This document shows positions 6,340 through 35,247 of a DNA stretch of 35,247 nt, piece by piece. The position numbers and the translations under genes were made by a program. The stretch is from a virus: positions 1 to 35,247 of the IMG/VR virus record IMGVR_UViG_3300046006_003845, one strand, 5' to 3'. The notes beneath the pieces are model-generated. The model searched no databases, was not told where the DNA came from, and worked only from the letters and a program-made list of their open reading frames with translations. Each line of letters begins with the position of its first letter. Positions within the stretch are counted from its first letter, which is position 1.

Positions 6340-6341
6340 AA

Positions 6342-6490: not shown

Positions 6491-6514
6491 CGAGTTAGAA
6501 ATAACTAAAAGGTT

Positions 6515-6552
6515 AAACCCCGAACTTAAAAAAAGTTTGGGGTTTTTTTTTA
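6515..6552 (+). terminator. Strong Rho-independent terminator
   Basis: 13-pair stem 6515-6527/6533-6545 (AAACCCCGAACTT/AAGTTTGGGGTTT, one G-T) with loop AAAAA and a T run. Confidence 0.88.
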
Positions 6553-6582
6553 CCCGATAGTGCAGGAATAGAAAAAAGTTTT

Positions 6583-6590
6583 TATCTTTG
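6583..6590 (+). promoter_or_regulatory. Bacteroidetes -7 element of second tRNA operon
   Basis: TATCTTTG; the -33 region is weak. It lies 49 bases before tRNA-Val, with the boxA-like element between. Confidence 0.65.
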
Positions 6591-6611
6591 TACCATCAAA
6601 CAGAATGAGAG

Positions 6612-6623
6612 TGTTCTTTGACA
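6612..6623 (+). promoter_or_regulatory. boxA-like antitermination element
   Basis: TGTTCTTTGACA, identical to 3089-3100, 22 bases downstream of the -7 element and 17 bases before tRNA-Val. This is the best-positioned of the three copies for a role in the nascent RNA. Confidence 0.6.
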
Positions 6624-6639
6624 TGTTGGAAACCAAAAT

Positions 6640-6711
6640 AGTCCTTTAGCTCAGTGGTAGAGCTCTTGCCTTACATGCAAGTGGTCGTAGGTTCGAATCC
6701 TACAGGGACTA
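6640..6711 (+). tRNA. tRNA-Val (TAC)
   Basis: Acceptor AGTCCTT/AGGGACT, anticodon arm CTTGC-CTTACAT-GCAAG, T-arm GTAGGTTCGAATCCTAC, discriminator A. Confidence 0.95.
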
Positions 6712-6718
6712 CATAAAT

Positions 6719-6790
6719 GGTCGGTTCATCTAGGGGTCAGGATTCAAGGTTTTCATCCTTGCCACACGGGTTCGAATCCCGTACCGACTA
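6719..6790 (+). tRNA. tRNA-Glu (TTC)
   Basis: Acceptor GGTCGGT/ACCGACT, anticodon arm CAAGG-TTTTCAT-CCTTG, T-arm ACGGGTTCGAATCCCGT, discriminator A. Confidence 0.95.
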
Positions 6791-6799
6791 CAAAAAAGA

Positions 6800-6831
6800 T
6801 TTGGTAGATTGAAATAATCTACTTATCTTTG
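6800..6831 (+). promoter_or_regulatory. Host-type promoter inside tRNA region
   Basis: TTTG (6800-6803), 20-base spacer, TATCTTTG (6824-6831). The spacer holds an inverted repeat GTAGATT/AATCTAC that could act as a hairpin or operator. Confidence 0.7.
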
Positions 6832-7089
6832 TAAAACATTGATAGTGGTTTTCCCCACCCAACGGATGTCGACAATCCAGGATGGAATCGGAATTCATCA
6901 CCCTTTCTGCCGAGGCCTCGTAAAACTACGATTAAGCAGTTAAGATTGGAGCGAGATGGGTACTCCTTCACTATCTCTAATTTGTGTTGTTCCCTTGAGA
7001 AAGGAATGGTAACATGACCCAGTAATAAAACACTCAATGAATGGGTATCAGACGTGAGGCAACACAGAGGATTTCTCAACCTCAAATTT
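6832..7089 (+). ncRNA. 258-base structured leader before tRNA-Phe
   Basis: No ORF supported on either strand. It starts at a good promoter and ends at tRNA-Phe, so it would be transcribed. The composition is more balanced than in the genes and includes several short self-complementary stretches (for example GGTTTTCCCCACC). Identity unknown. Confidence 0.4.
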
Positions 7090-7162
7090 GGTGTGATAGC
7101 TCAGTAGGTAGAGCAGTAGACTGAAAATCTACGTGCCGCAAGTTCGATTCTTGCTCTCACCA
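7090..7162 (+). tRNA. tRNA-Phe (GAA)
   Basis: Acceptor GGTGTGA/TCTCACC with one T-T mismatch, anticodon arm GTAGA-CTGAAAA-TCTAC, T-loop TTCGATT, discriminator A. Confidence 0.93.
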
Positions 7163-7237
7163 CGGAGTCCTGAAATAACAGGAAACCCCCACTCCCATAT
7201 GGCAGTCAGTCCGTTAACCTGATGAAGTGGGGTAAAT
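7163..7237 (+). ncRNA. Structured inter-tRNA spacer
   Basis: Hairpin CCTG-AAATAA-CAGG, then a seven-pair helix CCCCACT (7187-7193)/AGTGGGG (7226-7232) enclosing a 32-base loop. Confidence 0.4.
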
Positions 7238-7370
7238 AGTCAAGTGGACGTAATGCGGGATGGTACCCAAGTCCGAAAAACACCACGGTCCATAACCATT
7301 TGGACGCGAGAAGTTATAAGGTTGTCTACTCCGTCTTGTACGGTATTCGGTTCGAGTCCGACCTTGACTA
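7238..7370 (+). tRNA. Aberrant tRNA-like gene A
   Basis: A seven-pair acceptor AGTCAAG (7238-7244)/CTTGACT (7363-7369), discriminator A and a T-loop TTCGAGT flanked by CGG/CCG mark the ends of a tRNA, but 133 bases separate the termini. A GGAC/GTCC pair could be an expanded D-arm with an internal GGG-ATGGTA-CCC hairpin; GTCCA-TAACCATT-TGGAC could be an anticodon arm with an eight-base loop. I cannot assign an anticodon with U33. It may carry an insertion, be a pseudo-tRNA, or be a tRNA-shaped RNA with another job. Confidence 0.45.
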
Positions 7371-7472
7371 CAAAAAATAAAATGGACTATGCAGGTGCGT
7401 ATCCTGAAAAGACGGGGAGAACGATGTACACAACCAACCGTAATCCAATAACATAGATAGTTTTGTTTTTAT

Positions 7473-7570
7473 AGTCAGGGGGCGTGTTGGATAACGCACC
7501 AAGTCCGAGACACCGATGGTGGAGTAGGCATCCAAATGGGGGATAACAGGTTCGAATCCTGTCCTGACTA
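7473..7570 (+). tRNA. Aberrant tRNA-like gene B
   Basis: Acceptor AGTCAGG (7473-7479)/CCTGACT (7563-7569), D-arm GCGT-GTTGGATA-ACGC, perfect T-arm ACAGG-TTCGAAT-CCTGT, discriminator A. The middle is wrong for a tRNA: the only stem in place of the anticodon arm is ACCA (7498-7501)/TGGT (7517-7520) with a 15-base loop, followed by about 25 bases in place of the variable region. The string CAAGTCCGA is shared with gene A. Confidence 0.5.
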
Positions 7571-7739
7571 CAAAAGAAGCCCTCTGCCAAGCGCTTGGTA
7601 AGGAACGAAGATAGAGATTACAGATATAGGTTGAAATAAAAAATACCTTCGGGTACATCTATATTGGCGTGGACGCTCTCCGAATCGTGGGTCGGCATTG
7701 TTTGTGTGTTCAAGGGATATTTTAAAAACACACATTTAT
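7571..7739 (+). ncRNA. Structured inter-tRNA spacer
   Basis: No ORF. Includes the palindrome CCAAGCGCTTGG, a UUCG tetraloop hairpin TACC-TTCG-GGTA enclosed by ATATAG/CTATAT, and GTGTGTT/AACACAC. Confidence 0.4.
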
Positions 7740-7870
7740 AGTCAGGTGGCGGAATTGGTTAGACGCTACATAGATAGTCAACTACAACTGTAATAAACCC
7801 GCTGGCCACGGTTAATAAGAACAGCTCTGTCGTAGAGGTTGACATACAGGTTCGAATCCTGTCCTGACTA
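7740..7870 (+). tRNA. Aberrant tRNA-like gene C (Leu-like D-arm)
   Basis: Same acceptor AGTCAGG/CCTGACT and T-arm ACAGGTTCGAATCCTGT as gene B, with a class II D-arm (GTGGCGGAATTGGTTAGACGC, typical of tRNA-Leu). About 80 bases lie between the D-arm and the T-arm, held by a helix GTCAAC/GTTGAC with inner CTAC/GTAG. No normal anticodon loop was identified; an insertion in a former Leu tRNA is one reading. Confidence 0.5.
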
Positions 7871-8030
7871 CACGTTTCGGTTCATTACCGAATAGTATGT
7901 CCAATACGATGAGAAGCAAGGTGATTCCTTGTATGGAACTTCTGATAGGGAAACGCTCTATCTGGTTTGACTAACCGCGGGGAATATCAAAGAGATGTAA
8001 AGAACAACGTACTCTCATAGTCATTTTTTT
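7871..8030 (+). ncRNA. Structured inter-tRNA spacer
   Basis: No ORF. A row of hairpins: TTCGGT/ACCGAA, CAAGG-TGATT-CCTTG inside AGAAG/CTTCT, GATAG/CTATC and GGTT-TGACT-AACC. Confidence 0.4.
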
Positions 8031-8123
8031 AGTCAGGTTGGATACAAGGTCGGTTCGAGTCCGATGGCAGGTCATGGATGTCGGGTAGCTCCCTGTAGAG
8101 AGGTTCAATTCCTCTCCTGACTA
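8031..8123 (+). tRNA. Aberrant tRNA-like gene D (two T-arm-like segments)
   Basis: Acceptor AGTCAGG (8031-8037)/CCTGACT (8116-8122), T-arm AGAGG-TTCAATT-CCTCT next to it, discriminator A. A second T-arm-like string TCGG-TTCGAGT-CCGA lies near the 5' end, and GGGTAGCTCCCTGTAGAG just before the real T-arm resembles a 5' D-arm. The order of parts looks rearranged or chimeric. No anticodon assigned. Confidence 0.45.
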
Positions 8124-8272
8124 CAATTGGTAGTAAAAGGCGTAGGTTGATAAGCGTGGAGAGACGTGACGCAAGGGTACACACTAAGGATAAGTAGTAA
8201 TACTCAACTCTCTAATGGTGTGTGAAGTCGTGAGACGGGATTCCTGATAAAGTCAATCACTACCTTTTAAAT
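8124..8272 (+). ncRNA. Structured inter-tRNA spacer
   Basis: Closing helix GGTAGT (8129-8134)/ACTACC (8259-8264), inner helix ACACAC (8179-8184)/GTGTGT (8218-8223). No ORF. Confidence 0.45.
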
Positions 8273-8347
8273 GGTGACTATAGCTCAGTTGGTAGAGCAA
8301 AGGTTTGTGGTACCTTGTGCCATGGGTTCGATTCCCATTAGTTACCC
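8273..8347 (+). tRNA. tRNA-His (GTG)
   Basis: Acceptor GGTGACT/AGTTACC, anticodon arm AAGGT-TTGTGGT-ACCTT (GTG), T-arm ATGGGTTCGATTCCCAT, discriminator C as expected for His. Position -1 is encoded T, not G. Confidence 0.9.
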
Positions 8348-8353
8348 AAATAC

Positions 8354-8440
8354 GGAGAGATGGCAGAGTGGTTGATTGCGTCAGTCTTGAAAACTGAATT
8401 ACGGGAAACTGTAACGGGGGTTCGAACCCCTCTCTCTCCG
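8354..8440 (+). tRNA. tRNA-Ser (TGA)
   Basis: Class II: acceptor GGAGAGA/TCTCTCC, anticodon arm TCAGT-CTTGAAA-ACTGA, long variable arm, T-loop TTCGAAC, discriminator G. Confidence 0.94.
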
Positions 8441-8445
8441 CACAT

Positions 8446-8517
8446 TGTCACGTAACTCAGCGGTAGAGTTCTTCTCTGATACGGAAGCGGTCGTAGGTTC
8501 AAATCCTACCGTGACAA
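8446..8517 (+). tRNA. tRNA-Ile (GAT)
   Basis: Acceptor TGTCACG/CGTGACA, anticodon arm CTTCT-CTGATAC-GGAAG, T-arm GTAGGTTCAAATCCTAC, discriminator A. Confidence 0.93.
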
Positions 8518-8523
8518 CTTAAT

Positions 8524-8598
8524 GTCTTCGTAGCTCAGCTGGTTTAGAGCACTTCACTTTTAATGAAGGGGTCACAGGTTCGAACCCTGTCGGGGACA
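8524..8598 (+). tRNA. tRNA-Lys (TTT)
   Basis: Acceptor GTCTTCG/CGGGGAC, anticodon arm CTTCA-CTTTTAA-TGAAG, T-arm ACAGGTTCGAACCCTGT, discriminator A. One base separates it from the next ATG. Confidence 0.95.
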
Positions 8599-8599
8599 C

Positions 8600-8947
8600 A
8601 TGAAAATTTATAGGTTTTATAAAGATGAGTATGGTTGGTTTGTTGACTTACCAGAGTGGGAGGGAAACCGATTTGATTTACAAATGGTGTCAGGTGCCGA
8701 TATCTTTTGTGACATTTTATCGCAAGGAGAAGGTGAAGTTTTTGTAACACTATCTAAAGAACCTTTTGAATATTGTGGAGTTCTTGAATTTTTACATTTG
8801 GGAAGACTCGAAGGTTTTGAATTAGGTGAAGGTGCATGGTATTCATTAAAAGAACACATGGGATTATCGTTTGATTTGAAAATGTGGTTGTGCGATGTAA
8901 CAAAATTTGTTTTTGGTGAATTTCCAAAACAAATTTATTTTAAATAA
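8600..8947 (+). CDS. DUF6717-like protein
   Basis: 115 residues from the ATG at 8600, one base after tRNA-Lys, to the TAA at 8945-8947, which abuts tRNA-Cys. The pattern MKIYRFYKDEYGWFVDLPEW, FDLQMVSGADIF, GEVFVTLS and the C-terminal LWLCDVT-like MWLCDVTKFVFGEFPKQIYF matches a family I recall as DUF6717. It is a soluble alpha/beta protein of unknown role, found in bacteria and phages. No promoter or ribosome-binding signal lies in front; RNase P and tRNA 3' processing should release its mRNA with almost no leader or trailer. Confidence 0.75.
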   Translation: MKIYRFYKDEYGWFVDLPEWEGNRFDLQMVSGADIFCDILSQGEGEVFVTLSKEPFEYCGVLEFLHLGRLEGFELGEGAWYSLKEHMGLSFDLKMWLCDVTKFVFGEFPKQIYFK

Positions 8948-9019
8948 GGTCGGTTGGCCGAGTGGTTTAGGCGGTAGTCTGCAAAACTATCTACACAGGT
9001 TCGATTCCTGTACCGACCT
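8948..9019 (+). tRNA. tRNA-Cys (GCA)
   Basis: Acceptor GGTCGGT/ACCGACC, anticodon arm GTAGT-CTGCAAA-ACTAT, T-loop TTCGATT, discriminator T. It starts on the base after the preceding stop codon. Confidence 0.94.
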
Positions 9020-9025
9020 CTACAC

Positions 9026-9098
9026 ACGTCTGTAGCTCAGTTGGTAGAGCACTGGTCTCCAAAACCAGGTGTCGGTGGTTCGAGCCCATCCAGTCGTG
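9026..9098 (+). tRNA. tRNA-Trp (CCA)
   Basis: Acceptor ACGTCTG/CAGTCGT (one mismatch), anticodon arm CTGGT-CTCCAAA-ACCAG, T-arm GGTGGTTCGAGCCCATC, discriminator G. Confidence 0.93.
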
Positions 9099-9229
9099 CA
9101 AAGGTTGATTGGGGAAGTACATAACGTTAACGTGTCAGTAGTTCGTAGTTGTGGGGGAGTTTTAACTGTCAGAGTAACGCCAATCGTAAAAACAGATGTC
9201 CACCGAACCATCTTCTGTTTTCCTTATTT
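9099..9229 (+). ncRNA. Structured inter-tRNA spacer
   Basis: GATTGG/CCAATC helix and a strong hairpin AAAACAGA (9189-9196)/TCTGTTTT (9214-9221) with inner GATG/CATC. No credible ORF. Confidence 0.4.
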
Positions 9230-9311
9230 GGGAGTGTCGCATAGCGGCAATTGCTGCGGACTGTAAATCCGCTCTCATTAGAGTTCATAGGTTCGAGTCC
9301 TATCACTCCCA
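9230..9311 (+). tRNA. tRNA-Tyr (GTA)
   Basis: Class II: acceptor GGGAGTG/CACTCCC, anticodon arm GCGGA-CTGTAAA-TCCGC, variable arm CTCTCATTAGAG, T-loop TTCGAGT, discriminator A. Confidence 0.95.
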
Positions 9312-9312
9312 C

Positions 9313-9345
9313 AAAAAAAAAAGGAGGATTACTCCTCCTTTTTTG
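9313..9345 (+). terminator. Bidirectional terminator
   Basis: AAGGAGGA-TTAC-TCCTCCTT with A and T runs on both sides, between tRNA-Tyr (plus) and the end of the convergent holin-like gene (minus). Confidence 0.88.
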
Positions 9346-9359
9346 GTTTGTTAAATCAC

Positions 9360-9521
9360 TTATTTCTTTGATGTGATTGACCATACACCCGCAAAAATGG
9401 TTAACGCTGCTCCAATAAGTTCTTGAACAACTGCATCAGTTGCAAGACCTTTCATGACAACAATACCACCAATAAACGTAAGTGCGTGTCTAACAAGCCC
9501 TTGGATTTTTTCTTTACTCAT
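9360..9521 (-). CDS. Small holin-like membrane protein
   Basis: ATG at 9521 gives 53 residues; the longer frame runs into tRNA-Gln on the other strand. The N-terminus MSKEKIQGLVRHALTFIGG is basic and is followed by two hydrophobic segments (about residues 12-25 and 33-48, GAALTIFAGVWSIT), ending in KK. This size and pattern, with VRHxLT at the start and a WS near the end, is typical of small phage holins. The hydrolase at 11088 would be the natural partner. A TATTTATA element lies 29 bases upstream on the same strand. Confidence 0.6.
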   Translation of the reverse strand: MSKEKIQGLVRHALTFIGGIVVMKGLATDAVVQELIGAALTIFAGVWSITSKK

Positions 9522-9550
9522 TATAATATTGATTAAAGGTTTATGCCAAC

Positions 9551-9558
9551 TATAAATA
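9551..9558 (-). promoter_or_regulatory. TATTTATA element (minus)
   Basis: Reads TATTTATA on the minus strand, 29 bases before the ATG of the holin-like gene. Confidence 0.45.
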
Positions 9559-9575
9559 TAAAATAAAAATAAAAT

Positions 9576-9648
9576 TGTCCTGTGGTGTAATTGGCAACAC
9601 GTCTGGTTTTGGTCCAGAAGAGTATAGGTTCGAGACCTGTCGGGACAA
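9576..9648 (+). tRNA. tRNA-Gln (TTG)
   Basis: Acceptor TGTCCTG/CGGGACA, anticodon arm TCTGG-TTTTGGT-CCAGA, T-loop TTCGAGA, discriminator A. Confidence 0.94.
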
Positions 9649-9653
9649 CAATT

Positions 9654-9725
9654 GGTTTTGTGGTGTAACGGAGAGCACATGAAGCTACGGACTTCAGAGC
9701 GAGGGTTCGAATCCTTCCAAAACCA
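9654..9725 (+). tRNA. tRNA-Arg (ACG)
   Basis: Acceptor GGTTTTG/CAAAACC, anticodon arm TGAAG-CTACGGA-CTTCA, discriminator A with encoded CCA (9726-9728). A34 would need deamination to inosine by the host enzyme to read CGU/CGC/CGA. Confidence 0.93.
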
Positions 9726-9729
9726 CCAT

Positions 9730-9801
9730 GGCGATGTAGTTCAGTGGTAGAACACTTGATTCATATCCAAGAAGTCGGAGGTTCAATTCCTCCCATCGCC
9801 A
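9730..9801 (+). tRNA. tRNA-Met/Ile2 (CAT), second copy
   Basis: Acceptor GGCGATG/CATCGCC, anticodon loop TTCATAT (CAT) with an A-C mismatch closing the loop, T-arm GGAGGTTCAATTCCTCC, discriminator A. It differs strongly from the CAT tRNA at 531; no initiator features. Identity between Met and lysidine-modified Ile is open. Confidence 0.88.
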
Positions 9802-9807
9802 CTATAT

Positions 9808-9881
9808 TGGAATGTAGCTCAGTTGGTAAGAGCAGTTGTCTTATACACAACAGGTCGTGGGTTCAATTCCCTCCATTCCGA
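9808..9881 (+). tRNA. tRNA-Ile (TAT)
   Basis: Acceptor TGGAATG/CATTCCG, anticodon arm GTTGT-CTTATAC-ACAAC (TAT), T-arm GTGGGTTCAATTCCCTC, discriminator A and encoded CCA (9882-9884). It reads AUA directly, an anticodon uncommon in bacteria. Its 3' part overlaps the end of the convergent methyltransferase gene. Confidence 0.9.
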
Positions 9882-10645
9882 CCATTAAAATCAAAATGTC
9901 TGTGATAGTGAGTATTAAACATTGGAAAAATTAAATCTTCTTTAGATACCTCAACAACACCAATACCTAAAAAAGAACCTGTCACTGAATCATATTGGTC
10001 CGTAAATTCATGAATATTTTTATGATTACGTTTAATTTCTTCCCACGCAATTTTATTACCTTTTGTTGCGGAATTAACTATGTCATGGAATACAATATAT
10101 TTGGCCCCCATCATTAATGTAGTATAATAGTCTTTTTTTACGCAGGTATAAGAGTGACAACCATCAATAAAAACTAAATCAAATTGGACATTTGGGTATG
10201 GCGATTCATCACCAAGCGTAGTAAATAAAAAAGAACTACCTGAATCTATTTGATGGTAAAAGAATTTTCTATCGTCAAATTTATTTTGGTATATGTCCAA
10301 TATTTCAGATGGTGGGATTAAATCTAATGCGTGAGAATTTAAATAAGGATTATATTTTTTAAGTAATTCATTTATGATAATAAATGTACCACCCCACCTA
10401 CAACCTATTTCAAGATATGAGTCAATTTCCTTATCTTTTAAAAAGGTTAAGAACTTACTGAATTGGTTTGGGTATTGCCAAAACTTAATACCCCAACCAT
10501 AGTAAGATTCAAATTCTTTTGGCATTTCCTCAAGATATTCATTATTCATACCAAATGTTGGTAATATACGTTCTATATCCTGTTGAGATGCTGATTTAAA
10601 ATCAAAATCTTTAACAGCTTGGATTGATTCTATAATTGACTTCAT
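9863..10645 (-). CDS. SAM-dependent methyltransferase (CmcI / Methyltransf_24-like)
   Basis: 260 residues. Motif I is YLEIGCRWGGTF (about residues 97-108), followed by a SHALDLIP strand, then DLVFIDGCHSYTCVKKDYYT, the acidic post-I and His-Ser motif typical of CmcI-like and Methyltransf_24 proteins, and YIVFHDIVN. Such enzymes act on sugars, small molecules or glycans; the substrate here is unknown. The gene is on the minus strand within the tRNA region, and its last codons (FNGRNGGN and stop, 9863-9881) are antisense to the 3' end of tRNA-Ile, so the two genes share sequence. No obvious promoter. Confidence 0.75.
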   Translation of the reverse strand: MKSIIESIQAVKDFDFKSASQQDIERILPTFGMNNEYLEEMPKEFESYYGWGIKFWQYPNQFSKFLTFLKDKEIDSYLEIGCRWGGTFIIINELLKKYNPYLNSHALDLIPPSEILDIYQNKFDDRKFFYHQIDSGSSFLFTTLGDESPYPNVQFDLVFIDGCHSYTCVKKDYYTTLMMGAKYIVFHDIVNSATKGNKIAWEEIKRNHKNIHEFTDQYDSVTGSFLGIGVVEVSKEDLIFPMFNTHYHRHFDFNGRNGGN

Positions 10646-10685
10646 ACGTTAATTATAGTATTTTTCAAATAAAGTTAAACACTTC

Positions 10686-10773
10686 GGAAGGTTACCCAAG
10701 TTGGTGAAGGGGTCAGTTTGCTAAACTGATAGGTCGAGTAATCGGCGCGAGGGTTCGAGCCCCTCACCTTCCG
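10686..10773 (+). tRNA. tRNA-Ser (GCT)
   Basis: Class II: acceptor GGAAGGT/ACCTTCC, anticodon arm TCAGT-TTGCTAA-ACTGA, long variable arm, T-arm GAGGGTTCGAGCCCCTC, discriminator G. Last tRNA of the region. Confidence 0.94.
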
Positions 10774-10824
10774 CAAAAAAAAAATAATTATTCAAATAAT
10801 TGACGAATCACGGTTTCTAACTTA

Positions 10825-12696: not shown

Positions 12697-13154
12697 TTTC
12701 CTAATTTGTCTTTTTCTGATATTGTTAATTTATTATTACCAATATAACTCTTAATTACTTCCGATACTTTGGTATTATCGGACCAAACAATACTATGTTC
12801 ACTTTGCGGGTTATACTCACCTTCAACCATGTAAACTACAATTGTATTTGGTTCTAAAGTTAAGAATCCGTGAGCCTTTGTATTTGGTATAAATACCGCT
12901 CCTGTATCTCTTACTTCACAAAAATCAACTTCACCTGTTTCCAAATCGACCATAAAATCAACAATGGAACCTTTAACTACTTTAACATATTTTTTCTGTG
13001 GCGGGTTTGTTTGATAATGTAACCCTCTAAATGTGTAAATGTTATCATTCACACTAATAGAACATTGGTCCCATTTTTCATTAAGAACGTTTAACGGCAT
13101 TGGGGTATAAGAACCCCTACTATCATTATATGTTAAATGACTTACTTCTATCAT
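12693..13154 (-). CDS. RmlC-like dTDP-4-dehydrorhamnose 3,5-epimerase family protein
   Basis: 153 residues with the cupin pattern of RmlC/RfbC: the FRGLHYQTNPPQKKYVKV motif with the catalytic His, GSIVDFMVDL, FIPNTKAHGFLTLE, VVYMVEGEYNPQSEHSIVW. It is shorter than typical RmlC (about 180), lacking part of both ends. Products of this family feed deoxysugar synthesis for surface glycans; a phage copy may help alter the host surface or decorate phage components. It overlaps the HAD gene upstream (ATGA at 13151-13154) and the PspC gene downstream. Confidence 0.8.
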   Translation of the reverse strand: MIEVSHLTYNDSRGSYTPMPLNVLNEKWDQCSISVNDNIYTFRGLHYQTNPPQKKYVKVVKGSIVDFMVDLETGEVDFCEVRDTGAVFIPNTKAHGFLTLEPNTIVVYMVEGEYNPQSEHSIVWSDNTKVSEVIKSYIGNNKLTISEKDKLGK

Positions 13155-13723
13155 GTTAAAAATTTAAGTACTTTATCTTTTATTCCTGATTGTTTAATTC
13201 CTTCATTACCATTTGGAGTTAAGACAAAATTGTCCAATCCCCAATTTTTCCAGTCCTCACCATTCTTACCCATATCCAAATCATCAATAGATACCCAATG
13301 AGTAACTTCAGGATGGTCATGTAAAAATTGTGTTATTTCAATAACACGAGTCATTTCCAAGTCCCAACGAGGAGACCAAATCCAAACTTGGTCGTTATAC
13401 CAAGTACACTGACCTAAATTGGTGGTAACCGCAATTGGTTTTTTGATTATACCTTGTTGTTCATAGTATTCACCAAGTTCTTCAAGTGTTGCATGTAATT
13501 TCCAATCTGAAGATACAACGATTTCTGCACCCGTTTCTTCCAAAATTTTATTAAGTGTTTTAACAGCTTTTTGGTTGAAGTTATCAAATCGGTATTCTAA
13601 TGGAATTACATTATTACTCATGGATAATTTACGACCACCCCATTCCTTTTGTTTCTTATGACGACCTCCCCACTCTGAAGATAAACAGATTACTCCATCA
13701 TGGTCCAAAAATATAACTTTCAT
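13151..13723 (-). CDS. HAD-superfamily phosphatase-like protein
   Basis: 190 residues. The N-terminal MKVIFLDHDGVICL is HAD motif I with nucleophile Asp7 and Asp9; EIVVSSDWKLHATLEEL is motif II; SIDDLDM is the acidic motif III/IV. The WKLHAT and SPRW features recall the HAD_SAK (RNA-repair-like) group, so it could be a nucleic-acid or nucleotide phosphatase, though sugar phosphates are possible given the epimerase next to it. Host promoter TATATTTG lies four bases before the ATG. Confidence 0.75.
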   Translation of the reverse strand: MKVIFLDHDGVICLSSEWGGRHKKQKEWGGRKLSMSNNVIPLEYRFDNFNQKAVKTLNKILEETGAEIVVSSDWKLHATLEELGEYYEQQGIIKKPIAVTTNLGQCTWYNDQVWIWSPRWDLEMTRVIEITQFLHDHPEVTHWVSIDDLDMGKNGEDWKNWGLDNFVLTPNGNEGIKQSGIKDKVLKFLT

Positions 13724-18406: not shown

Positions 18407-19246
18407 ATGGAACAAAATTTAGAATTACTTAAAGCCGTTTTGAGCGTGCCTACCGCAACGTATCACGAAGAAAGAATGGTTGAATTTTTGGTTAACTGGT
18501 TAACTGAAAATAATATTGAACACTACGTAGACCAATATAATAACGTCTACGCAACAAAACAAGAATCCAAAGAACTTCCTGAAGGTTTTTATTTCCCATG
18601 TGTAATTTCACATACGGATACGGTACACGGTCTTAATGATATTAATATCAGTGAAGAAATGTTACCAAACGCCCAAAAAGAAATTAAATTGTCGTACAAG
18701 GCGTATGATAATGATGGAGTACCAACAGGTATTGGCGGTGATGATAAATGTGGTGTGTTTGCATGTCTTTCATTATTGAAAGAATTACCATACGTTAAGG
18801 CGGCATTCTTTGTATCTGAAGAAACGGGATGTCATGGTTCCATGAAGGCTGATTCATCATTCTTTGAAAATGTTGGTTATGGAATTCAATTCGACGCACC
18901 TGAGAACTGGATGATTACAGAAAAATGTTTTGGTCAAGTTTTATTTGATAGAGAAACTGAATTCTTTGACGCTTGTGATGAAGTATTAACTGAAGGAATG
19001 GGAAATAGAATGAGATACATGGTTCACCCCTACACTGACGTATATGCGTTAAGAGGTAAGTTTGACTTCTCTTGTATTAACTTCTCAATTGGGTACTACC
19101 AATACCACACAAAGCATGAATACGTCGTTGTTGAAGACGTAATGAACGGTATCGAAATGGGTAAGAAAATGATTGATAAACTTGGTCATAAATTACACTA
19201 CAAAGAAATGGTTGAACATGGTTGGAAATCCAAGTGGGTTTTTTAA
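18407..19246 (+). CDS. M20-type zinc peptidase-like protein
   Basis: 279 residues. Metal and catalytic motifs in order: SHTDTVHG (His69, Asp71), GIGGDDKCGV (about 109-117), SEETGCHGS (Glu138-Glu139), and a C-terminal YHTKHEYVVVEDVMNGIEMG supplying the last His. This order fits M20 peptidases such as peptidase T and carboxypeptidase G2, but the protein is shorter because the dimerisation domain seems missing. It is cytoplasmic. In the phage it may degrade peptides released by Clp proteolysis, as suggested by the nearby clpC-like gene; that link is inference. Confidence 0.75.
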   Translation: MEQNLELLKAVLSVPTATYHEERMVEFLVNWLTENNIEHYVDQYNNVYATKQESKELPEGFYFPCVISHTDTVHGLNDINISEEMLPNAQKEIKLSYKAYDNDGVPTGIGGDDKCGVFACLSLLKELPYVKAAFFVSEETGCHGSMKADSSFFENVGYGIQFDAPENWMITEKCFGQVLFDRETEFFDACDEVLTEGMGNRMRYMVHPYTDVYALRGKFDFSCINFSIGYYQYHTKHEYVVVEDVMNGIEMGKKMIDKLGHKLHYKEMVEHGWKSKWVF

Positions 19247-20358: not shown

Positions 20359-22374
20359 TTATCGTCCTTTCTTTTGGACCACAACATTTTCGTCCACGAC
20401 TTTGATGACATAAGTCTTACCCTCAATCATATTACCCGTTAGAACTTCTTCGGACAATAGGTCTTCAACCTTGTCCTGAATAGCTCTTTTTAATGGACGA
20501 GCTCCGTACAATTCATCGTACCCAATCTTAGCCAAGTATTCGACCAAAGATTCTTCGTAAGTGATTTTGTACTTCATGTCTACAAGACGAGTCATCAACC
20601 TCTTCAACTCGATGTCTGTAATCTTCTTAATGTCTTCTTGACCCAACGAGTTGAATACAATAGTATCATCAATACGATTAATGAACTCAGGTGAGAAGAA
20701 ATTTTTCATTTCCTTCATCAACATTTGTTTCTTAGCTTCTTCATTACTATATGAATTACTTGAGAAACCAATACCTGTTCCAAAGTCTTGTAGTTTTTTA
20801 ACCCCCAAGTTTGATGTCAAGATAATCAAGGTATTCTTGAAGTTAATCTTACGACCCAAACTGTCGGTTACGTGACCATCATCCAAAATTTGAAGTAGGA
20901 TGGTGAACACATCTTTGTGAGCCTTTTCAACCTCATCGAATAGGATTACAGAGTAAGGTTTGTTTTTAACTTTCTCAGTCAACAATCCACCTTCTTCATA
21001 ACCTACGTATCCTGGAGGGGCTCCAACCAATTTAGATACTGTGTGTTTCTCTTGGTATTCAGACATGTCGACACGAATGAGAGCATCTTCGGAGCCGAAC
21101 ATTTCTTTTGCCAATTGTTTCGCCAAATAGGTCTTACCAACACCTGTTGAACCCAAGAACACGAATGACCCGATTGGACGATTAGGGTCTTTGATACCCA
21201 AACGATTTCTTTTGATTGCCTTTGCAATCTTAACCACCGCATTGTTTTGACCGATAACTTTGTCAATCAAAGTTTTGTCCAAGTCCAACAAAGCTTTGGT
21301 GTCATCCACACTCATTTTACTTACAGGGATTTTTGTCATGTTTGATACAACATCATAAACATGTTCCAATAAGATGAGTTGTTTTTCTTTGGATAACTTT
21401 TCCTCAAACTTAATTTTTTCTTGGTCCAACTTTAACAACAACTTTTTCTCTTTGTCTCTAAGTTCTGCCGCTTGTTCGTAGTTTTGTTTTTTAACCACTT
21501 CCATTTTTTGAACTTTAATTTCTGCGGCCTTTTTCTTCAACTCCTCAATTGCTTCAGGAGTCTTTAACTCGGTCTGCATTCTCGCCCCAACCTCATCCAA
21601 GATGTCAAACGCTTTATCAGGGAACTCACGGTCCGTGATATAACGGTCTGCCAACTTAACACAAGTCTCGATTACCTCATCACTGTAATTCACCTTGTGG
21701 AAATCTTCGTATTTGTCACGAACATTCTTAAGGATTTGGATTGTTTCATCAACTGACGATGGTTCAACTACAACCTTTTGGAAACGACGTTCCAAGGCTC
21801 CATCTTTTTCAATGTTTTTACGGAACTCATCTAATGTAGTTGCTCCGATACATTGAACTTCCCCACGTGCCAATGCGGGTTTGAAGATGTTTGAACCATC
21901 CATCGAACCTGAAGAGTTTCCTGAACCTACCAAGGTGTGAATCTCGTCGATGAATACGATGATGTTTGGGTTCGCCTGAAGTTCTTCAATAATCACTTTC
22001 ATACGTTCCTCAAACTGACCACGGTATTTGGTACCAGCAACAACTGATGTAAGGTCAAGATTGACGATACGTTTGTCAATCAAATTACGAGGACAATCAC
22101 CGTTTACAATTTTAATTGCCAATCCTTCGACTAATGCTGTTTTACCACAACCAGGTTCTCCAAGGATAATCGGGTTATTTTTCTTTCTACGAGAAAGGAT
22201 TTGAGCAATCCTTAAAATTTCTCGGTCACGACCAATAACGGGGTCAAGTTTACCAGCTTCGGCTAGTTTAATCAAATCTCTACTGAAATTGTCTAACACG
22301 GGTGTGTTTGATTCTCCTGATGATTTAGTTTTTTTGTTCATCATTTTGTCGTCGTCGTCCATTAAATCGTTCAT
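20359..22374 (-). CDS. clpC: ClpC-like AAA+ protein unfoldase lacking the N-domain
   Basis: 671 residues with two AAA+ modules. D1: Walker A GEPGCGKT (72-79), Walker B VFIDEIH (140-146). A UVR-like segment in the middle (KQNYEQAAELRDKEKKLL, about 296-314) marks it as ClpC-type rather than ClpA. D2: Walker A GSTGVGKT (408-415), Walker B VILFDEVEKAH (476-486). The loop GTGIGFSS (IGF, 535-537) lies where ClpA and ClpC dock on ClpP; ClpB lacks this. Host ClpC has about 150 extra N-terminal residues for adaptors; here only about 25 acidic residues (MNDLMDDDDKMM) precede D1. It should unfold proteins in the cytoplasm and feed host ClpP. Divergent from the UVR gene across a twin-operator region. Confidence 0.9.
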   Translation of the reverse strand: MNDLMDDDDKMMNKKTKSSGESNTPVLDNFSRDLIKLAEAGKLDPVIGRDREILRIAQILSRRKKNNPIILGEPGCGKTALVEGLAIKIVNGDCPRNLIDKRIVNLDLTSVVAGTKYRGQFEERMKVIIEELQANPNIIVFIDEIHTLVGSGNSSGSMDGSNIFKPALARGEVQCIGATTLDEFRKNIEKDGALERRFQKVVVEPSSVDETIQILKNVRDKYEDFHKVNYSDEVIETCVKLADRYITDREFPDKAFDILDEVGARMQTELKTPEAIEELKKKAAEIKVQKMEVVKKQNYEQAAELRDKEKKLLLKLDQEKIKFEEKLSKEKQLILLEHVYDVVSNMTKIPVSKMSVDDTKALLDLDKTLIDKVIGQNNAVVKIAKAIKRNRLGIKDPNRPIGSFVFLGSTGVGKTYLAKQLAKEMFGSEDALIRVDMSEYQEKHTVSKLVGAPPGYVGYEEGGLLTEKVKNKPYSVILFDEVEKAHKDVFTILLQILDDGHVTDSLGRKINFKNTLIILTSNLGVKKLQDFGTGIGFSSNSYSNEEAKKQMLMKEMKNFFSPEFINRIDDTIVFNSLGQEDIKKITDIELKRLMTRLVDMKYKITYEESLVEYLAKIGYDELYGARPLKRAIQDKVEDLLSEEVLTGNMIEGKTYVIKVVDENVVVQKKGR

Positions 22375-29578: not shown

Positions 29579-31339
29579 GTGAATAAAGAACAACTGATTA
29601 TAGAGTTAACGAAGTGTATGAGGAATACTCCTTATGCACTTCGAACTTATTTACAGACATACGATAATACCGTATCAAAATACGTCCCATTAGATTTATT
29701 CCCCGACCAAGTTAGTTTAATAGAAGACTACGACAAATACAATGAAAACATTGCATTAAAGTATCGTCAGGCGGGTGTATCTACAGTAACCGCAGCTTGG
29801 ATATCAAAAAAATTGGCATTCGCCCAAAAAAACAAACCTGAAAAAATTCTTATTATTGCCAACAAGTTAGATACATCAATGGAGATGGCTAACAAGGTTA
29901 GAGGGTTTACTGAACAATGGCCTGCGTGGGTTGGTATTTCATTCTCAAAAGAAAAAAACTCTCAAAGACACTTTAAACTTAATAATAATTGTGAAGTTAA
30001 AGCCGTTGCAACATCAAAAGATGCCTTGAGGGGTTATACACCTACCATTCTTGTATTTGATGAAGCGGCGTTTATCGAAGCAGACTCAGATTTCTGGTCA
30101 GCCTGTATGGCGTCCCTATCTACAGGGGGTAAAGTTATCGTTGTATCCACACCAAACGGATATGACCAAATTTATTATGAAATATACGACCAGTCATTAA
30201 GAAACATGAACGATTTTAAAATATCTGAAATGTTTTGGTATCGTGACCCAAGATATACAAAAGATTTGTATATGGTTAAAACTCCTGACTTAGTACATTT
30301 CTTATTAAATCGTGAAGAATATAGTGATAAAGATATCATTAATTTGTCGATGGACAATCCATACGAAAGAGACCATACCGTTGTAACCGATTATATTGAA
30401 CAAGGGTACAAACCATGTTCTGCTTGGTTTGAGGGTATGGTTAAGAAGTTAAAGTTTGATAGAAGAAAAGTTGCACAGGAATTAGAATGTGACTTTTTAG
30501 GTTCGGGTGATAATGTATTCGAATCTGAATTGATGCAAGAAATATCCAAAAATACTTTACGTGAACCACAAGCCAAACTAATGGGAGGTTCCCTATGGAT
30601 ATTTAAAGAACCTGTAAACGGACATAAGTACGTAATGGGTGTCGATGTATCAAGAGGTGACTCTGAGGACTTCTCGTGTATCCAAATCATTGATTTTGAA
30701 ACAAGAGAACAGGTATTAGAATATGTTGCCAAGGTTCCACCTGATGTATTAGCAGAAATCGCATATAAATGGGGGACAATGTACAACGCTTATTGTGTTA
30801 TTGATATCACAGGAGGTATGGGTATTTCTACATCAAGAAAATTACAAGAATTATCATATCAAGGTGGTTTATATGTCGATAATGTCGATACAAGTAATAA
30901 GTGGAAATGGGACCCAAAAATTAATGACCGAATACCAGGTATTAACTTTAACTCAAAAAGGGTACAAATTATATCCGCGTTTGAGGAAAATGTTAGACAT
31001 GGATTTAAAGTATATTCAAGTAGATTATACAATGAAATGAATACGTTTATTTATATTAACGGAAGACCTGACCATCAAAAAGGTCATCACGATGACTGTA
31101 TTATGGGTGTATCTATGGCGTTATATGTTGCCGAAAAATCATTTCAATCATTAGAAAAAGTTACAAACCATACTAAAGCAATGATTAACTCATGGGCAAC
31201 CACTGTTAATGAAAACAAAAACTCTTCTGAATTCTTTAATCCAATGGTTCCTCAAATGGGTAGAGATAATGGTATGAATAATAATGGCGCGGCAACTAAA
31301 GCTGATTACCAAAAATACGGATGGCTATTTGGTGCCTGA
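29579..31339 (+). CDS. terL: Terminase large subunit (gp17-like)
   Basis: 586 residues from a GTG at 29579. ATPase: the Q-motif-like FPDQVSLIEDYD, a deviant Walker A KYRQAGVSTVTAAW (about 61-74), Walker B TILVFDEAAF (156-165), and the coupling motif VVSTPNG. Nuclease (RNase H-like): GVDVSRGDSEDFSCIQIID around 350, YCVIDITGGMG, and HHDDCIMGVSMA, giving the conserved acidic residues. It cuts concatemeric DNA and pumps it into the prohead through the portal encoded next. The Walker A Arg-x-x-Gly form is normal for T4-like terminases. Confidence 0.95.
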   Translation: MNKEQLIIELTKCMRNTPYALRTYLQTYDNTVSKYVPLDLFPDQVSLIEDYDKYNENIALKYRQAGVSTVTAAWISKKLAFAQKNKPEKILIIANKLDTSMEMANKVRGFTEQWPAWVGISFSKEKNSQRHFKLNNNCEVKAVATSKDALRGYTPTILVFDEAAFIEADSDFWSACMASLSTGGKVIVVSTPNGYDQIYYEIYDQSLRNMNDFKISEMFWYRDPRYTKDLYMVKTPDLVHFLLNREEYSDKDIINLSMDNPYERDHTVVTDYIEQGYKPCSAWFEGMVKKLKFDRRKVAQELECDFLGSGDNVFESELMQEISKNTLREPQAKLMGGSLWIFKEPVNGHKYVMGVDVSRGDSEDFSCIQIIDFETREQVLEYVAKVPPDVLAEIAYKWGTMYNAYCVIDITGGMGISTSRKLQELSYQGGLYVDNVDTSNKWKWDPKINDRIPGINFNSKRVQIISAFEENVRHGFKVYSSRLYNEMNTFIYINGRPDHQKGHHDDCIMGVSMALYVAEKSFQSLEKVTNHTKAMINSWATTVNENKNSSEFFNPMVPQMGRDNGMNNNGAATKADYQKYGWLFGA

Positions 31340-31379: not shown

Positions 31380-33230
31380 ATGAGTGAACAAAATCTAACG
31401 GTCTGGCAGAGGCTATCGCAAACATTCGGCCCAAATTCACTGTTGAAACAGGATTATCCGACTTTTAAGTTTGATAAAAAAGAACTTCTGCGTACGCCAA
31501 ATCGTGACGATTATGAGAGAGAAAAACTCCAAGCTCAACAAACATTTTATTTAACAAATCAATGGGCTAAAGTTGAGAATAATTTATACTCTCAAGCAAT
31601 CTATTATGAACCATCAAGATTGTCTGCTCAATACGATTATGAGTCAATGGAATACACTCCTGAGATTTCTGCGGCATTGGACATTTACTCTGAGGAGTCT
31701 ACAACAACAAATGAAGATGGTTTTATTTTACAAATTTATTCAGAATCAAAAAGAATTAAATCAGTATTAGCCGATTTATTTAACAACGCCCTTGATATTA
31801 ATACTAACTTACCAATGTGGACAAGAAACACGTGTAAGTATGGTGATAACTTCGTTTATATGAAATTAGACCCTGAAAAAGGTATTATTGGTTGTCAACA
31901 ATTACCAACAATTGAAATTGAACGTCATGAGGTTGGAGTTACTGCTAAGATTACTGTTGATATTACACAAGAAAAAGATGAGAATAAAAAGGCTCTTCAC
32001 TTTACTTGGAAGAATAAAAACATGGAGTTTCAATCATGGGAAATCGCTCACTTTAGATTATTAGGTGATGACAGAAAACTTCCTTACGGTACATCTATGT
32101 TGGAAAAGGCTCGACGTATTTGGAAACAGTTATTGTTATCAGAAGATGCGATGTTAATTTACCGTACATCAAGAGCACCTGAAAGAAGGATGTTTAAAGT
32201 ATTCGTGGGTAACATGAATGATGATGACGTTGAAGCATACGTAAACCGTGTTGCCAACAAATTTAAAAGAGAACAAATTGTTGATGCCAAAACAGGTAAT
32301 GTTGATATGAGGTTTAACCAAATGGCTGTTGACCAAGATTATTTCATCCCTGTTCGTGACCCTGCAGCTCCAGACCCAATTACAACATTACCAGGAGCAA
32401 CAAACCTATCAGAGATTGCCGACATTGAATATATTCAAAAGAAATTATTGACAGCTCTTCGTGTTCCAAAGGCGTTCTTAGGATTTGAAGAAGTTGTTGG
32501 TGATGGTAAAAACTTATCATTACAAGATATCCGTTTTGCTCGTACAATCAATAGAATTCAAAAATCTATGATTGCCGAGTTGAACAAGATAGCAATCGTT
32601 CACTTATTCTTATTAGGGTTTGAGGATGAATTACAAAACTTTACATTAGGACTTACAAACCCATCAACACAAGCCGATTTATTAAAAATCGACGTATGGA
32701 AAGAAAAAGTATTATTGTATAAAGATTTGGTTGCAGACCCAGGAAACGGTATTCAACCTACATCATCAACATGGGCTAAAAAACATATCTTTGGTTGGTC
32801 TGATGAAGAAATCAGGTTGGATTTACAACAACAAAGAATTGAAAGAGCGGTTGGTGAAGAACTTAAAGCAACACCTACAGTTATTACCAAAACAGGTTTA
32901 TTTGATAATATTGATAAATTATACGGTAGTTCTACAGGTGGTACTGCAAGTGCTACTGCAACTACTGCAGGTGATGATACGGGTGCGGTTCCATCATTTG
33001 GTGGTGGCGGATTTGAAACTGCAGAACCAACAGGAGGTGAAGAAGCTCCACCAGCAGAAGCTCCACCAGCAGGAGGTGAATCTGAAGTTACGCCTGAATC
33101 TAAAAAAGAAAGAATGAATATTCTATTAGAAAGCGGATTCGCAGAAAAAAGTAGATTTTTTAATTTAGACCAAGGTCAAGATTCTTTGGGAGAAATTTCA
33201 AAAGAATTGGATAAGTTATTAAACTCGTAA
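31380..33230 (+). CDS. Portal protein (gp20-like)
   Basis: 616 residues, usual size for T4 gp20. Features include YTPEISAALDIYSEESTTTN, MWTRNTCKYGDNFVYMKLD, the clip/stem-like IAHFRLLGDDRKLPYGTSML, the RAPERRMFKVFVGNM motif and QKKLLTALRVPKAFLGFEEV, followed by a Gly/Ala/Pro-rich linker (about 520-575) and a terminal acidic helix. It forms the dodecameric ring at the head vertex for DNA passage and head assembly. Directly downstream of terminase as in T4-like phages. Confidence 0.94.
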   Translation: MSEQNLTVWQRLSQTFGPNSLLKQDYPTFKFDKKELLRTPNRDDYEREKLQAQQTFYLTNQWAKVENNLYSQAIYYEPSRLSAQYDYESMEYTPEISAALDIYSEESTTTNEDGFILQIYSESKRIKSVLADLFNNALDINTNLPMWTRNTCKYGDNFVYMKLDPEKGIIGCQQLPTIEIERHEVGVTAKITVDITQEKDENKKALHFTWKNKNMEFQSWEIAHFRLLGDDRKLPYGTSMLEKARRIWKQLLLSEDAMLIYRTSRAPERRMFKVFVGNMNDDDVEAYVNRVANKFKREQIVDAKTGNVDMRFNQMAVDQDYFIPVRDPAAPDPITTLPGATNLSEIADIEYIQKKLLTALRVPKAFLGFEEVVGDGKNLSLQDIRFARTINRIQKSMIAELNKIAIVHLFLLGFEDELQNFTLGLTNPSTQADLLKIDVWKEKVLLYKDLVADPGNGIQPTSSTWAKKHIFGWSDEEIRLDLQQQRIERAVGEELKATPTVITKTGLFDNIDKLYGSSTGGTASATATTAGDDTGAVPSFGGGGFETAEPTGGEEAPPAEAPPAGGESEVTPESKKERMNILLESGFAEKSRFFNLDQGQDSLGEISKELDKLLNS

Positions 33231-33253: not shown

Positions 33254-33955
33254 ATGACTTTCGGGCAAATCAAATCCATAATTGAAAACAACTTATTAGA
33301 ATCCTACAGAAATGAACAGGAGTTTAAAAAATCGTTAAAAGAATTCAAACACAACGTTTTGAGTAATAAAAATATGTCAAAACTATATTCTTTATACGAC
33401 CAATTAACAACACCTCAGGGATTAACTGAAAACGATGCCAAAGATTTTCTTGATGAAGGTATTAGTTTAATTCAAAAATTATTACCATTAATTAAAACTC
33501 CAAAGACCGTAACTGAAAACGTTGAAAACAAATATTCTGACGTTGACGCTCTTGTTTACACAAACAAGTTGGATTTAATGGAAAGATTAAAATCAAAGAA
33601 AAATTTAATTCAAACTTTAAAATTGGCGAAAAAAGAAACCATAAAGGAAACAATTAACATTCCTTTAAAATCTATGGTCTTCATCGCGAATCAAACTTTG
33701 AATAGTTATCTTGACAATCTTGACGAAACCGCAAAAAAAGAATTTATCCAATTAATGTCTGAAGACACTTCATCTCTTAAAGAGAAATTTGAAACTTTAC
33801 GTGAAAGTACTATTGGTAAATTAAATACTCTATTAGAAAACGAACACGAGTTTGAAATTCAAACAAAATTGTCTGAAACAATTGATAGATTGAAAGTTGA
33901 AAAATTTGACCAACTTAATTTCCTTAAGTTAAAAAACTTAGAAGAATCAATCTAA
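33254..33955 (+). CDS. Coiled-coil protein between portal and protease
   Basis: The ATG at 33254 gives 233 residues (a TTG at 33239 would add five). Almost wholly helical and Lys/Glu-rich, beginning MTFGQIKSIIENNLLESYRN with two I/L-x-E sites (IIE, LLE). In T4 the genes between portal (20) and protease (21) encode core proteins (67, 68) with similar character, so a prohead core role is plausible. The last nine bases overlap the end of the convergent bS21 gene. Confidence 0.6.
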   Translation: MTFGQIKSIIENNLLESYRNEQEFKKSLKEFKHNVLSNKNMSKLYSLYDQLTTPQGLTENDAKDFLDEGISLIQKLLPLIKTPKTVTENVENKYSDVDALVYTNKLDLMERLKSKKNLIQTLKLAKKETIKETINIPLKSMVFIANQTLNSYLDNLDETAKKEFIQLMSEDTSSLKEKFETLRESTIGKLNTLLENEHEFEIQTKLSETIDRLKVEKFDQLNFLKLKNLEESI

Positions 33956-34135
33956 TTTAGATTTCAATTTTTGAATGTAAGAAGCCTTCAACTTTTGTTG
34001 TCTTTTTTCTACCGACTTTTTAACAAACTCTTTTTTACCAAACAATATCTGATTTTGTTTAGTTTTAATTACTTTTGACTTTAATGTCTTTAGGGCTTTT
34101 TCTATCCCGTCTTTTTTTACATCTACTTTTAACAT
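33947..34135 (-). CDS. rpsU: Ribosomal protein bS21
   Basis: The ATG at 34135 gives 62 residues: MLKVDVKKDGIEKALKTLKS, then KVIKTKQNQILFGKKEFVKK, SVEKRQQKLKASYIQKLKSK. The order matches Bacteroidetes bS21 (VxxGxxIxxALKxxKxK, REF/QxFxKPSxKxR, KAAYIQxLR). bS21 binds the 30S platform near the 16S 3' end. It is encoded against the direction of all neighbours, within the head gene block. The upstream stretch on its strand is GATATTTGTATAATATG with no Shine-Dalgarno; GATATTTG is one base from the host -7 element. Confidence 0.85.
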   Translation of the reverse strand: MLKVDVKKDGIEKALKTLKSKVIKTKQNQILFGKKEFVKKSVEKRQQKLKASYIQKLKSKLD

Positions 34136-34233
34136 ATTATACAAATATCTTATATTTTCTGAAAGTTTTTGACAATGGAACTATTTTTTGTTATTTTTTT
34201 ACAAACAAATAAACATTGACAATATGAAACTTA

Positions 34234-34665
34234 ATGAAAAAAGGAAAAAGTGTAAAGTTAAATCTCTACAATCCAATTAAATCTGTGTACGGTACTGTAG
34301 ATTCTAAAAATTTGAAATCACTATACATAAACATACAATCATGGGTAACCCCCAAATTTGAACACGACAATTGGAACAGAGTTGTTTGTAACCTAAGCCG
34401 AGACATTAAACATTCGGTATTCAATTCAATAAACCACGAATTATTTAAAGAACAAAGTATAGTAGACTTAGACCTCAGAACAAGCGGAATATCACACGGA
34501 AAAAAATCCTTTCTAAATTTAGAGGTTAATTTATACACCAATAGTGAAATAGATTTTAAATCCCCTGAAGTAAAAGATTCAGTTAAAAAAATTATCAAAA
34601 ACATATTCAAAGAGAATGTTATCCAAAACAAATACTTTGAATTTTCACCATCAAAAAATGATTAA
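34234..34665 (+). CDS. Conserved phage protein, head block
   Basis: 143 residues: KLNLYNPIKSVYGTVDSKNL, SLYINIQSWVTPKFEHDNWN, a basic middle (VVCNLSRDIKHSVFNSI) and IVDLDLRTSGISHGKKSFLN. I have seen closely similar proteins in other T4-like phages beside the prohead protease; no function is known to me. ATG at 34234 is in frame; another ATG at 34224 is in a different frame. It lies upstream of the protease on the same strand. Confidence 0.7.
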   Translation: MKKGKSVKLNLYNPIKSVYGTVDSKNLKSLYINIQSWVTPKFEHDNWNRVVCNLSRDIKHSVFNSINHELFKEQSIVDLDLRTSGISHGKKSFLNLEVNLYTNSEIDFKSPEVKDSVKKIIKNIFKENVIQNKYFEFSPSKND

Positions 34666-34710: not shown

Positions 34711-35247
34711 ATGAAACAATTAAGAATATTAGAAGCAAGTGAAGTAGGTCATGGAATATTGGTTGAAACAGATGCAGGTTGGATATCACCAAAAGATGTT
34801 CGTAATGCCGAGATGTTAAGAGAGGCTAAGGAGTTAGACTACAGAAACCCTTTTGAATTTTATGCGGTATTACAAAAATACGATACACCAAATAGAAACG
34901 GAAGATTTTATCCTGAAAGAATCTTGAAGAGAGAAGCCGAGAACTATAAAAAAGCAATTGATAAAGGTCTATCAACTTCAGAACTTAATCACCCTGAGTC
35001 TTCTCTAATTGACTTAGACAGGGTATCACATATCATCACAGATATATGGTGGGATAAGAATATCTTGATGGGTAAACTTAAATTGTTGACATCACCAGGA
35101 TTTCATGAAAGGGGTATTGTTTCTACTAAAGGAGACCAAGCAGCTAACTTGATGAGACAAGGTGTTACTATGGGAGTTTCTTCAAGAGGAGTTGGTTCGT
35201 TAAAAAAGGTTGGGGAAAGAAATGAAGTACAAGACGATTTTGAATTT
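34711..35247 (+). CDS. Prohead maturation protease (gp21-like), 3' truncated
   Basis: The frame is open from the ATG at 34711 to the window end (179 residues). It has the herpesvirus-assemblin-like arrangement: FYAVLQKYDTPNRNGRFYPE, then SELNHPESSLIDLDRVSHII (catalytic His about 94) and GVTMGVSSRGVGSLKKV (nucleophile Ser about 157-158). This protease degrades the prohead core and cuts other head proteins before DNA entry. Its own N-terminus MKQLRILE|ASEV contains an I-L-E|A site that would suit self-cleavage. Only the third catalytic residue and the tail are beyond the window. Confidence 0.9.
   Translation, partial: MKQLRILEASEVGHGILVETDAGWISPKDVRNAEMLREAKELDYRNPFEFYAVLQKYDTPNRNGRFYPERILKREAENYKKAIDKGLSTSELNHPESSLIDLDRVSHIITDIWWDKNILMGKLKLLTSPGFHERGIVSTKGDQAANLMRQGVTMGVSSRGVGSLKKVGERNEVQDDFEF

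Follow-up and report, generated by a model that had tools for sequence, protein, structure and literature searches.

A phage bS21 gene without a Shine-Dalgarno sequence, placed antisense to head genes, retains the tyrosine that faces the 16S rRNA tail

Main finding

The gene studied here comes from an IMG/VR virus record, a fragment of 35,247 bases whose portal and terminase genes are T4-like; this fragment was analysed over its whole length and is referred to as the window. The phage bS21 gene and its proposed role have already been published, and our extension concerns its Shine-Dalgarno (SD) state, its clade range and its promoter. What is new is that all 54 distinct phage bS21 leaders are SD-less, as opposed to those of Flavobacterium rpsU, and that all but one of 63 distinct phage proteins have the equivalent of Tyr54. 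Also new are the single clade formed by the phage bS21 proteins, the antisense site in a second clade of phages, and a conserved late-type promoter box on the bS21 strand. From these sequences we propose, at about even confidence, that a late, SD-independent bS21 would replace the host protein, keep the anti-SD occluded and, in hosts with an SD-controlled rpsU, also repress that gene.

The bS21 gene and its locus

The bS21 open reading frame runs on the minus strand from the ATG at 34135 to the stop at 33947 and encodes 62 residues. The features of the locus are as follows.

29579..31339, plus strand: terminase large subunit (TerL); PF03237, E 1.2e-13; phrog_2
31380..33230, plus strand: portal protein (gp20-like); PF07230, E 2.2e-76
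33254..33955, plus strand: convergent neighbour, hypothetical, 233 aa; no family match
33947..33955, no strand assigned: tail-to-tail overlap of 9 nt between bS21 and the convergent head-region gene; -9 overlap in 80/80 clade-1 loci
33947..34135, minus strand: bS21 gene, 62 aa, ATG start; PF01165 above cut-off, match to PDB 7jil_z, purifying selection
34234..34665, plus strand: divergent neighbour, hypothetical, 143 aa, alpha/beta fold; kept in both clades; model pLDDT 84.7
34711..35247, plus strand: prohead (head maturation) protease, cut by the contig end; its orthologue L188:15554-16276 is phrog_207 (E 2.2e-43)

The window protein matches Pfam PF01165 (Ribosomal_S21) with 29.9 bits against a gathering cut-off of 27 (E 4.5e-7). 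Among solved structures, it is closest to the bS21 of F. johnsoniae (7jil_z, E 2.8e-6), and in this alignment Tyr53 of the phage protein pairs with Tyr54. It scores 14.1 bits against the NCBIfam equivalog TIGR00030, below the cut-off of 28.95, and is therefore a divergent bS21; with this qualification, the earlier note was right to call the gene a clear bS21. The span given there, 33947-34149, is correct at the stop end but not at the 5' end, since position 34149 lies 14 nt upstream of the ATG and is the first base of the promoter-like box described below. Pairwise dN/dS values against relatives are 0.01-0.19 where dS could be estimated, dS being saturated in several pairs, which indicates a gene under selection; these values and the PF01165 match rule out a pseudogene or a chance open reading frame. 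An AlphaFold2 model has helices at residues 11-34 and 40-61 (pLDDT 84.5, pTM 0.40), and Foldseek returned only four weak matches to it, all with E > 3 and all from ribosome structures. Among named phages, the protein matched only two unannotated metagenomic records of 735 kb, at about 46% identity.

Two sets of relatives were compared. Clade 1 comprises 80 close IMG/VR relatives kept out of 445 found, and clade 2 is a second set of 80 loci, obtained with scan patterns that cover part of the KVIKTKQ motif discussed below, in which bS21 (representatives aligned) is 40-58% and TerL 56-62% identical to the window's. In the window, bS21 is on the strand opposite to TerL, portal, protease and both neighbours. 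Among relatives of both clades with identifiable neighbours, the convergent gene is opposite to bS21 in 156/156 loci and the divergent gene in 157/157. The placement of bS21 against the surrounding head genes, as described in the earlier note, is thus confirmed, and the antisense site also holds in the more diverged clade 2. The divergent neighbour may be the gene that Chen et al. call bS21_CN and describe as co-evolving; its model is confident, its family has no named relative, and the fold search gave one clear match only, to a Myoviridae sp. ctPuP5 protein that is itself uncharacterised. The window protease is 94.9% identical to the copy in L075.

The location among head genes could also point to a virion component that is delivered with the genome, or to an extra-ribosomal role, and delivery in the particle has been raised before (PMC9723584). 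We hold this to be very unlikely, given that the ribosomal features of the protein, including Tyr54, are conserved and that the sequence contains no sign of packaging.

In a tree of these short sequences, all 63 distinct phage bS21 proteins form one clade (support 100/100), which makes one ancestral capture the simplest reading; the nearest host lineage is not resolved by the tree. The host bS21 proteins of L302, L307, L315, L318 and L327 are placed weakly beside the phage clade (support 74/91); they have Val23 in common with the phages, and their rpsU leaders are SD-less, so that the ancestor of phage bS21 may never have carried an SD. L162 (IMGVR_UViG_3300002520_000085) was considered as a third independent phage capture and ruled out on its bacterial-looking neighbour genes; its rpsU, which has no extended SD, adjoins xerC-like and hibernation-factor-like genes, and it was excluded from the phage counts.

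Beside this locus, the window has 26 tRNA genes at 531-10774 (~10 kb), covering most amino acids, and in the same region a gene for a ClpA/ClpB-type AAA+ ATPase of 671 aa (20359-22374, minus strand); a ClpP/head-protease-like gene occurs in a relative (L190:14025-14705). In the speculation of McNutt et al. (PMC9976891), host bS21 might be removed by a protease that phages of this kind encode.

Shine-Dalgarno state of phage and host leaders

SD strength was computed as the pairing of a 25-nt leader with the 16S tail UCACCUCCUUUCU. The bS21 leader of the window reaches -2.2 kcal/mol, i.e. it has no SD, and the extended SD typical of SD-autoregulated rpsU (pairing below -13 kcal/mol) is absent from it. 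The 21 distinct leaders of clade 1 range from -3.8 to +1.0 kcal/mol and the 33 of clade 2 from -4.8 to +3.0 kcal/mol, and hence all 54 are SD-less. The 17 distinct leaders of Flavobacterium rpsU (-18.4 to -21.6 kcal/mol) do not overlap with them, in a set whose selection for resemblance to F. johnsoniae makes the extended SD look commoner than it is. The absence of an SD that the earlier note had observed for the phage copy therefore extends to its relatives. The same applies to its view of phage mRNAs as SD-less, for none of 327 phage gene leaders pairs at or under -8 kcal/mol and their distribution matches that of shuffled leaders. Since phage genes at large are SD-less, bS21 is not special within the phage, and its lack of an SD need not be a selected escape.

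The assumption that host rpsU is under a strong SD holds for Flavobacterium but not class-wide: among 70 Bacteroidia rpsU genes, 13 reach -13 kcal/mol and 44 lie above -5 kcal/mol (essentially no SD). An extended SD on rpsU has been reported for ~80% of Flavobacteriales, nearly all Sphingobacteriales, about half of the Chitinophagales and no Bacteroidales (McNutt et al. 2023, PMC9976891). The proposal that the phage copy escapes SD control is thus sound as far as the missing SD goes; it presupposes a host with an SD-controlled rpsU (13/70) and so may not apply here, and being SD-less is the phage default. The further suggestion that SD-blind ribosomes suit phage mRNAs is weak, because the mRNAs of Bacteroidia hosts are SD-less too (PMC6847099, PMC9976891), which leaves phage mRNAs without an advantage.

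These results bear on a simpler explanation, in which the phage just supplies a loosely bound protein at a time when host rpsU output falls in infection, ribosomes function normally and the choice of mRNAs is unchanged. The absence of an SD would then reflect the SD-less state of all phage genes, as their resemblance to shuffled leaders suggests, and the host-like Tyr54 and Gln56 as well as the late assembly and exchangeability of bS21 (PMC10931766, PMC9976891) fit this explanation. It is less well matched by the seven positions in the N-terminal half at which phage proteins are invariant, or almost so, for a residue other than that of Flavobacterium, which is more than supply needs, although this argument is tempered by the age of the phage copy, which is ancient, and by a host ancestor that the tree does not resolve. 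We consider supply possible but somewhat doubtful.

A conserved tyrosine and phage-specific residues

33977..33979, minus strand: codon of Tyr53 (equivalent to F. johnsoniae Tyr54, which stacks on A1534 of the 16S tail); from alignments

The earlier note had tied its idea to the residues at the 16S 3' end, among which Tyr54 alone was covered here: its equivalent is retained in 62 of the 63 distinct phage proteins, with His in the remaining one, and the equivalent of Gln56 is likewise kept in 62/63. The non-Flavobacterium residues are at positions 5, 8, 21, 23, 24, 27 and 28 in both phage clades, and helix 1 with the following loop reads KVIKTKQ in phages versus KFDKTGT in hosts; the uniformity of KVIKTKQ in clade 2 is biased by the scan patterns, and the Tyr54 count is unaffected by them. 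In clade 1, the otherwise conserved Arg33 is replaced by Phe or Tyr. Taken together, the alignments suggest that phage bS21 is host-like near the 16S tail and different on the mRNA side, in agreement with the pattern of Chen et al. The core idea of a phage bS21 that replaces the host copy with Tyr54 kept is consistent with these features, but it is not new, having been published in 2022 (PMC9723584).

Retention of the tyrosine also bears on a model in which phage bS21 opens the anti-SD and makes SD-using ribosomes. Ribosomes of F. johnsoniae that lack bS21 or its C-terminus do exactly this (PMC9976891); however, the occluding Tyr is conserved and the phage genes have no SDs, and on these grounds the model was rejected, with hardly any probability left to it.

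Promoter-like elements on the bS21 strand

34140..34149, minus strand: promoter-like box GATATTTGTA directly 5' of the ATG (TATTTGTA at -12); conserved in leaders
34166..34175, minus strand: TTGTCAAAAA element; GTCAAAA conserved in both clades in the leader alignment

The motif ATATTT[GC]TA is present in 30 of 33 distinct clade-1 bS21 leaders (shuffled mean 0.2), TATTTAT in 32/32 distinct clade-2 leaders, and GTCAAAA in 33/33 and 24/32 distinct leaders of clades 1 and 2, respectively (shuffled mean 0.7). It should be noted that the leaders are kin by descent; yet among the more distant clade-1 pairs, bS21 is near saturation at synonymous sites or past it. At the position of an A in the late box, the clade-1 box carries G or C, and when scored against each of the two promoter classes, the bS21 box of the window does no better than about the 95% level of the null.

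Promoter boxes were surveyed in the window and in two long relative contigs (182 and 128 kb). In this set, TATTTATA is enriched before genes (31 versus 2.2 expected), as is TATATTTG (9 versus 0.6 expected). The TATTTATA/TATTTAT box precedes portal, tail sheath, head-tail adaptor and protease genes, and TATATTTG precedes genes for the ssDNA-binding protein, polynucleotide kinase/ATPase, RNA ligase, phosphoesterase and the like; the genes downstream suggest that the former marks a late and the latter an early class, to which a ClpP/head-protease-like gene carrying TATATTTG is an apparent exception. Examples of TATTTATA are found at 24341, 31380 and 33254 (plus strand) of the window and in L183-L199. 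Read on the complementary strand, this box corresponds to TATAAATA, the late box of T4. TATATTTG fits the -7 element of Bacteroidota sigma-A, TANNTTTG, and the phage promoters of the type TTG-N18-20-TAnnTTTG resemble the Bacteroidota sigma-A consensus; along with the Bacteroidia-type bS21, they are indirect pointers to a possible Bacteroidetes host. A plain host-type TAnnTTTG was not adopted as the bS21 promoter: the box begins with G, its TTG lies at a spacing of 22-23 and not 18-20, TTTC occurs in some relatives, and the clade-2 box is TATTTAT. No intrinsic terminator was found around the bS21 gene. Most likely, the bS21 strand has a late-type promoter of its own, whose timing the sequence does not prove.

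Late-box positions peak at 11-13 and 20-24 nt before the ATG, and in 12 of 26 cases (p about 4e-16) the distance from TAnnTTTG to the ATG is exactly 12 nt, for instance at 13151-13723 (minus strand) and 18407-19246 (plus strand) of the window and in L183-L199. By the F. johnsoniae rule (T-12..G-5), a TAnnTTTG at -12 places the start site on the A of the ATG. Many genes of these jumbo phages that are probably early are therefore predicted to have leaderless transcripts, in contrast to their mostly leadered hosts: leaderless mRNAs make up only 5.5% in F. psychrophilum and are a small minority in flavobacteria. Leader length could tell phage messages from host ones, and phage bS21 may accordingly shift the choice of mRNAs to phage messages with absent or very short leaders, not via the SD state. 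The box spacings, the scarcity of leaderless host mRNAs and the phage-specific residues on the mRNA-facing helix (PMC9723584) are in line with such a shift; however, the start sites are predicted from sequence by the F. johnsoniae rule. We judge it unlikely. The same holds for a composite in which one ancient capture was freed from SD control with its Tyr kept, turned the host feedback against rpsU and, through an altered mRNA-facing helix, favours leaderless or near-leaderless phage messages, which in its entirety seems improbable to us.

Discussion

In the explanation that we prefer, replacement of host bS21 with the anti-SD kept occluded, a late-type phage promoter on the bS21 strand would drive the gene, its translation would be SD-independent, and the protein would join 30S subunits in place of host bS21. 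Judging from its conservation, Tyr53 would keep the 3' tail of the 16S rRNA folded into the pocket of bS21, bS18 and bS6, and the phage-specific changes of helix 1 and the next loop would sit near the mRNA path. In F. johnsoniae, the Y54A mutation or loss of bS21 raises translation of the SD-bearing rpsU (PMC9976891). As rpsU is best translated by bS21-lacking ribosomes in SD-controlled hosts, 30S subunits saturated with phage bS21 should turn host rpsU off through the feedback loop of the host itself. This loop, a counter-defence in the proposal of McNutt et al. (PMC9976891), would by our inference work for the phage instead. During late-stage infections, bS21 and core structural genes are highly transcribed (PMC9723584).

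Several observations speak against this explanation. Chen et al. describe bS21 and an opposite-strand neighbour as 'transcribed together' (PMC9723584), and that paper's account of the mapping of RNA reads with Bowtie2 mentions no strand-specific protocol; given co-transcription across opposite strands, antisense read-through could add to the reported 'bS21 expression'. In addition, the extended SD is restricted to 13/70 rpsU genes class-wide, and the loss of Arg33 in clade 1, the failure to reach TIGR00030 and the weak score of the window box weigh against it.

Regulation by specialised ribosomes has few clear examples, one of which is the bS21 of Bacteroidia, and no functional test of phage takeover via ribosome composition in Bacteroidota was found in the literature searched. 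An SD-free phage bS21 with the occluding Tyr is a simple tool for this: in F. johnsoniae it should silence an rpsU'-gfp fusion unaided by other phage factors, which would show whether phages use ribosome composition to seize translation.

Comparison with known systems

Chen et al. (2022, PMC9723584) described bS21 on the reverse strand of this site in jumbo phages of Bacteroidetes; they noted the conserved Tyr54, mapped the protein on 7JIL, proposed ribosome substitution by phage bS21, and reported one CRISPR spacer that links a related phage to Flavobacterium. Compared by published description, the window resembles their clades a-e in that bS21 is on the reverse strand, flanked by two hypothetical genes and adjoining TerL, portal, prohead protease and MCP, with Tyr54 conserved, residues 21, 23 and 28 divergent, AT-rich DNA and many tRNAs. 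It differs in that 26 tRNAs are present in a 35-kb fragment versus 5-25 per genome of 293-331 kb, the longest relative contig here being 182 kb. Clade 2 keeps bS21 at 56-62% TerL identity to the window, whereas Chen et al. found none below ~70% TerL similarity, by another measure and reference.

McNutt et al. (2023, PMC9976891) discussed phage bS21 together with rpsU autoregulation. The window gene shares Tyr54, Gln56 and PF01165 with Flavobacterium rpsU, but it lacks the extended SD (-2.2 versus -18 to -22 kcal/mol), and its protein has KVIKTKQ for KFDKTGT, a one-residue deletion at position 9 and Phe for Arg33. Likened by description only, the Pelagibacter phage HTVC008M, another phage with a host of another phylum, also encodes a bS21, which enters E. 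coli ribosomes (Mizuno et al. 2019, PMC6375957, as cited in PMC9723584).
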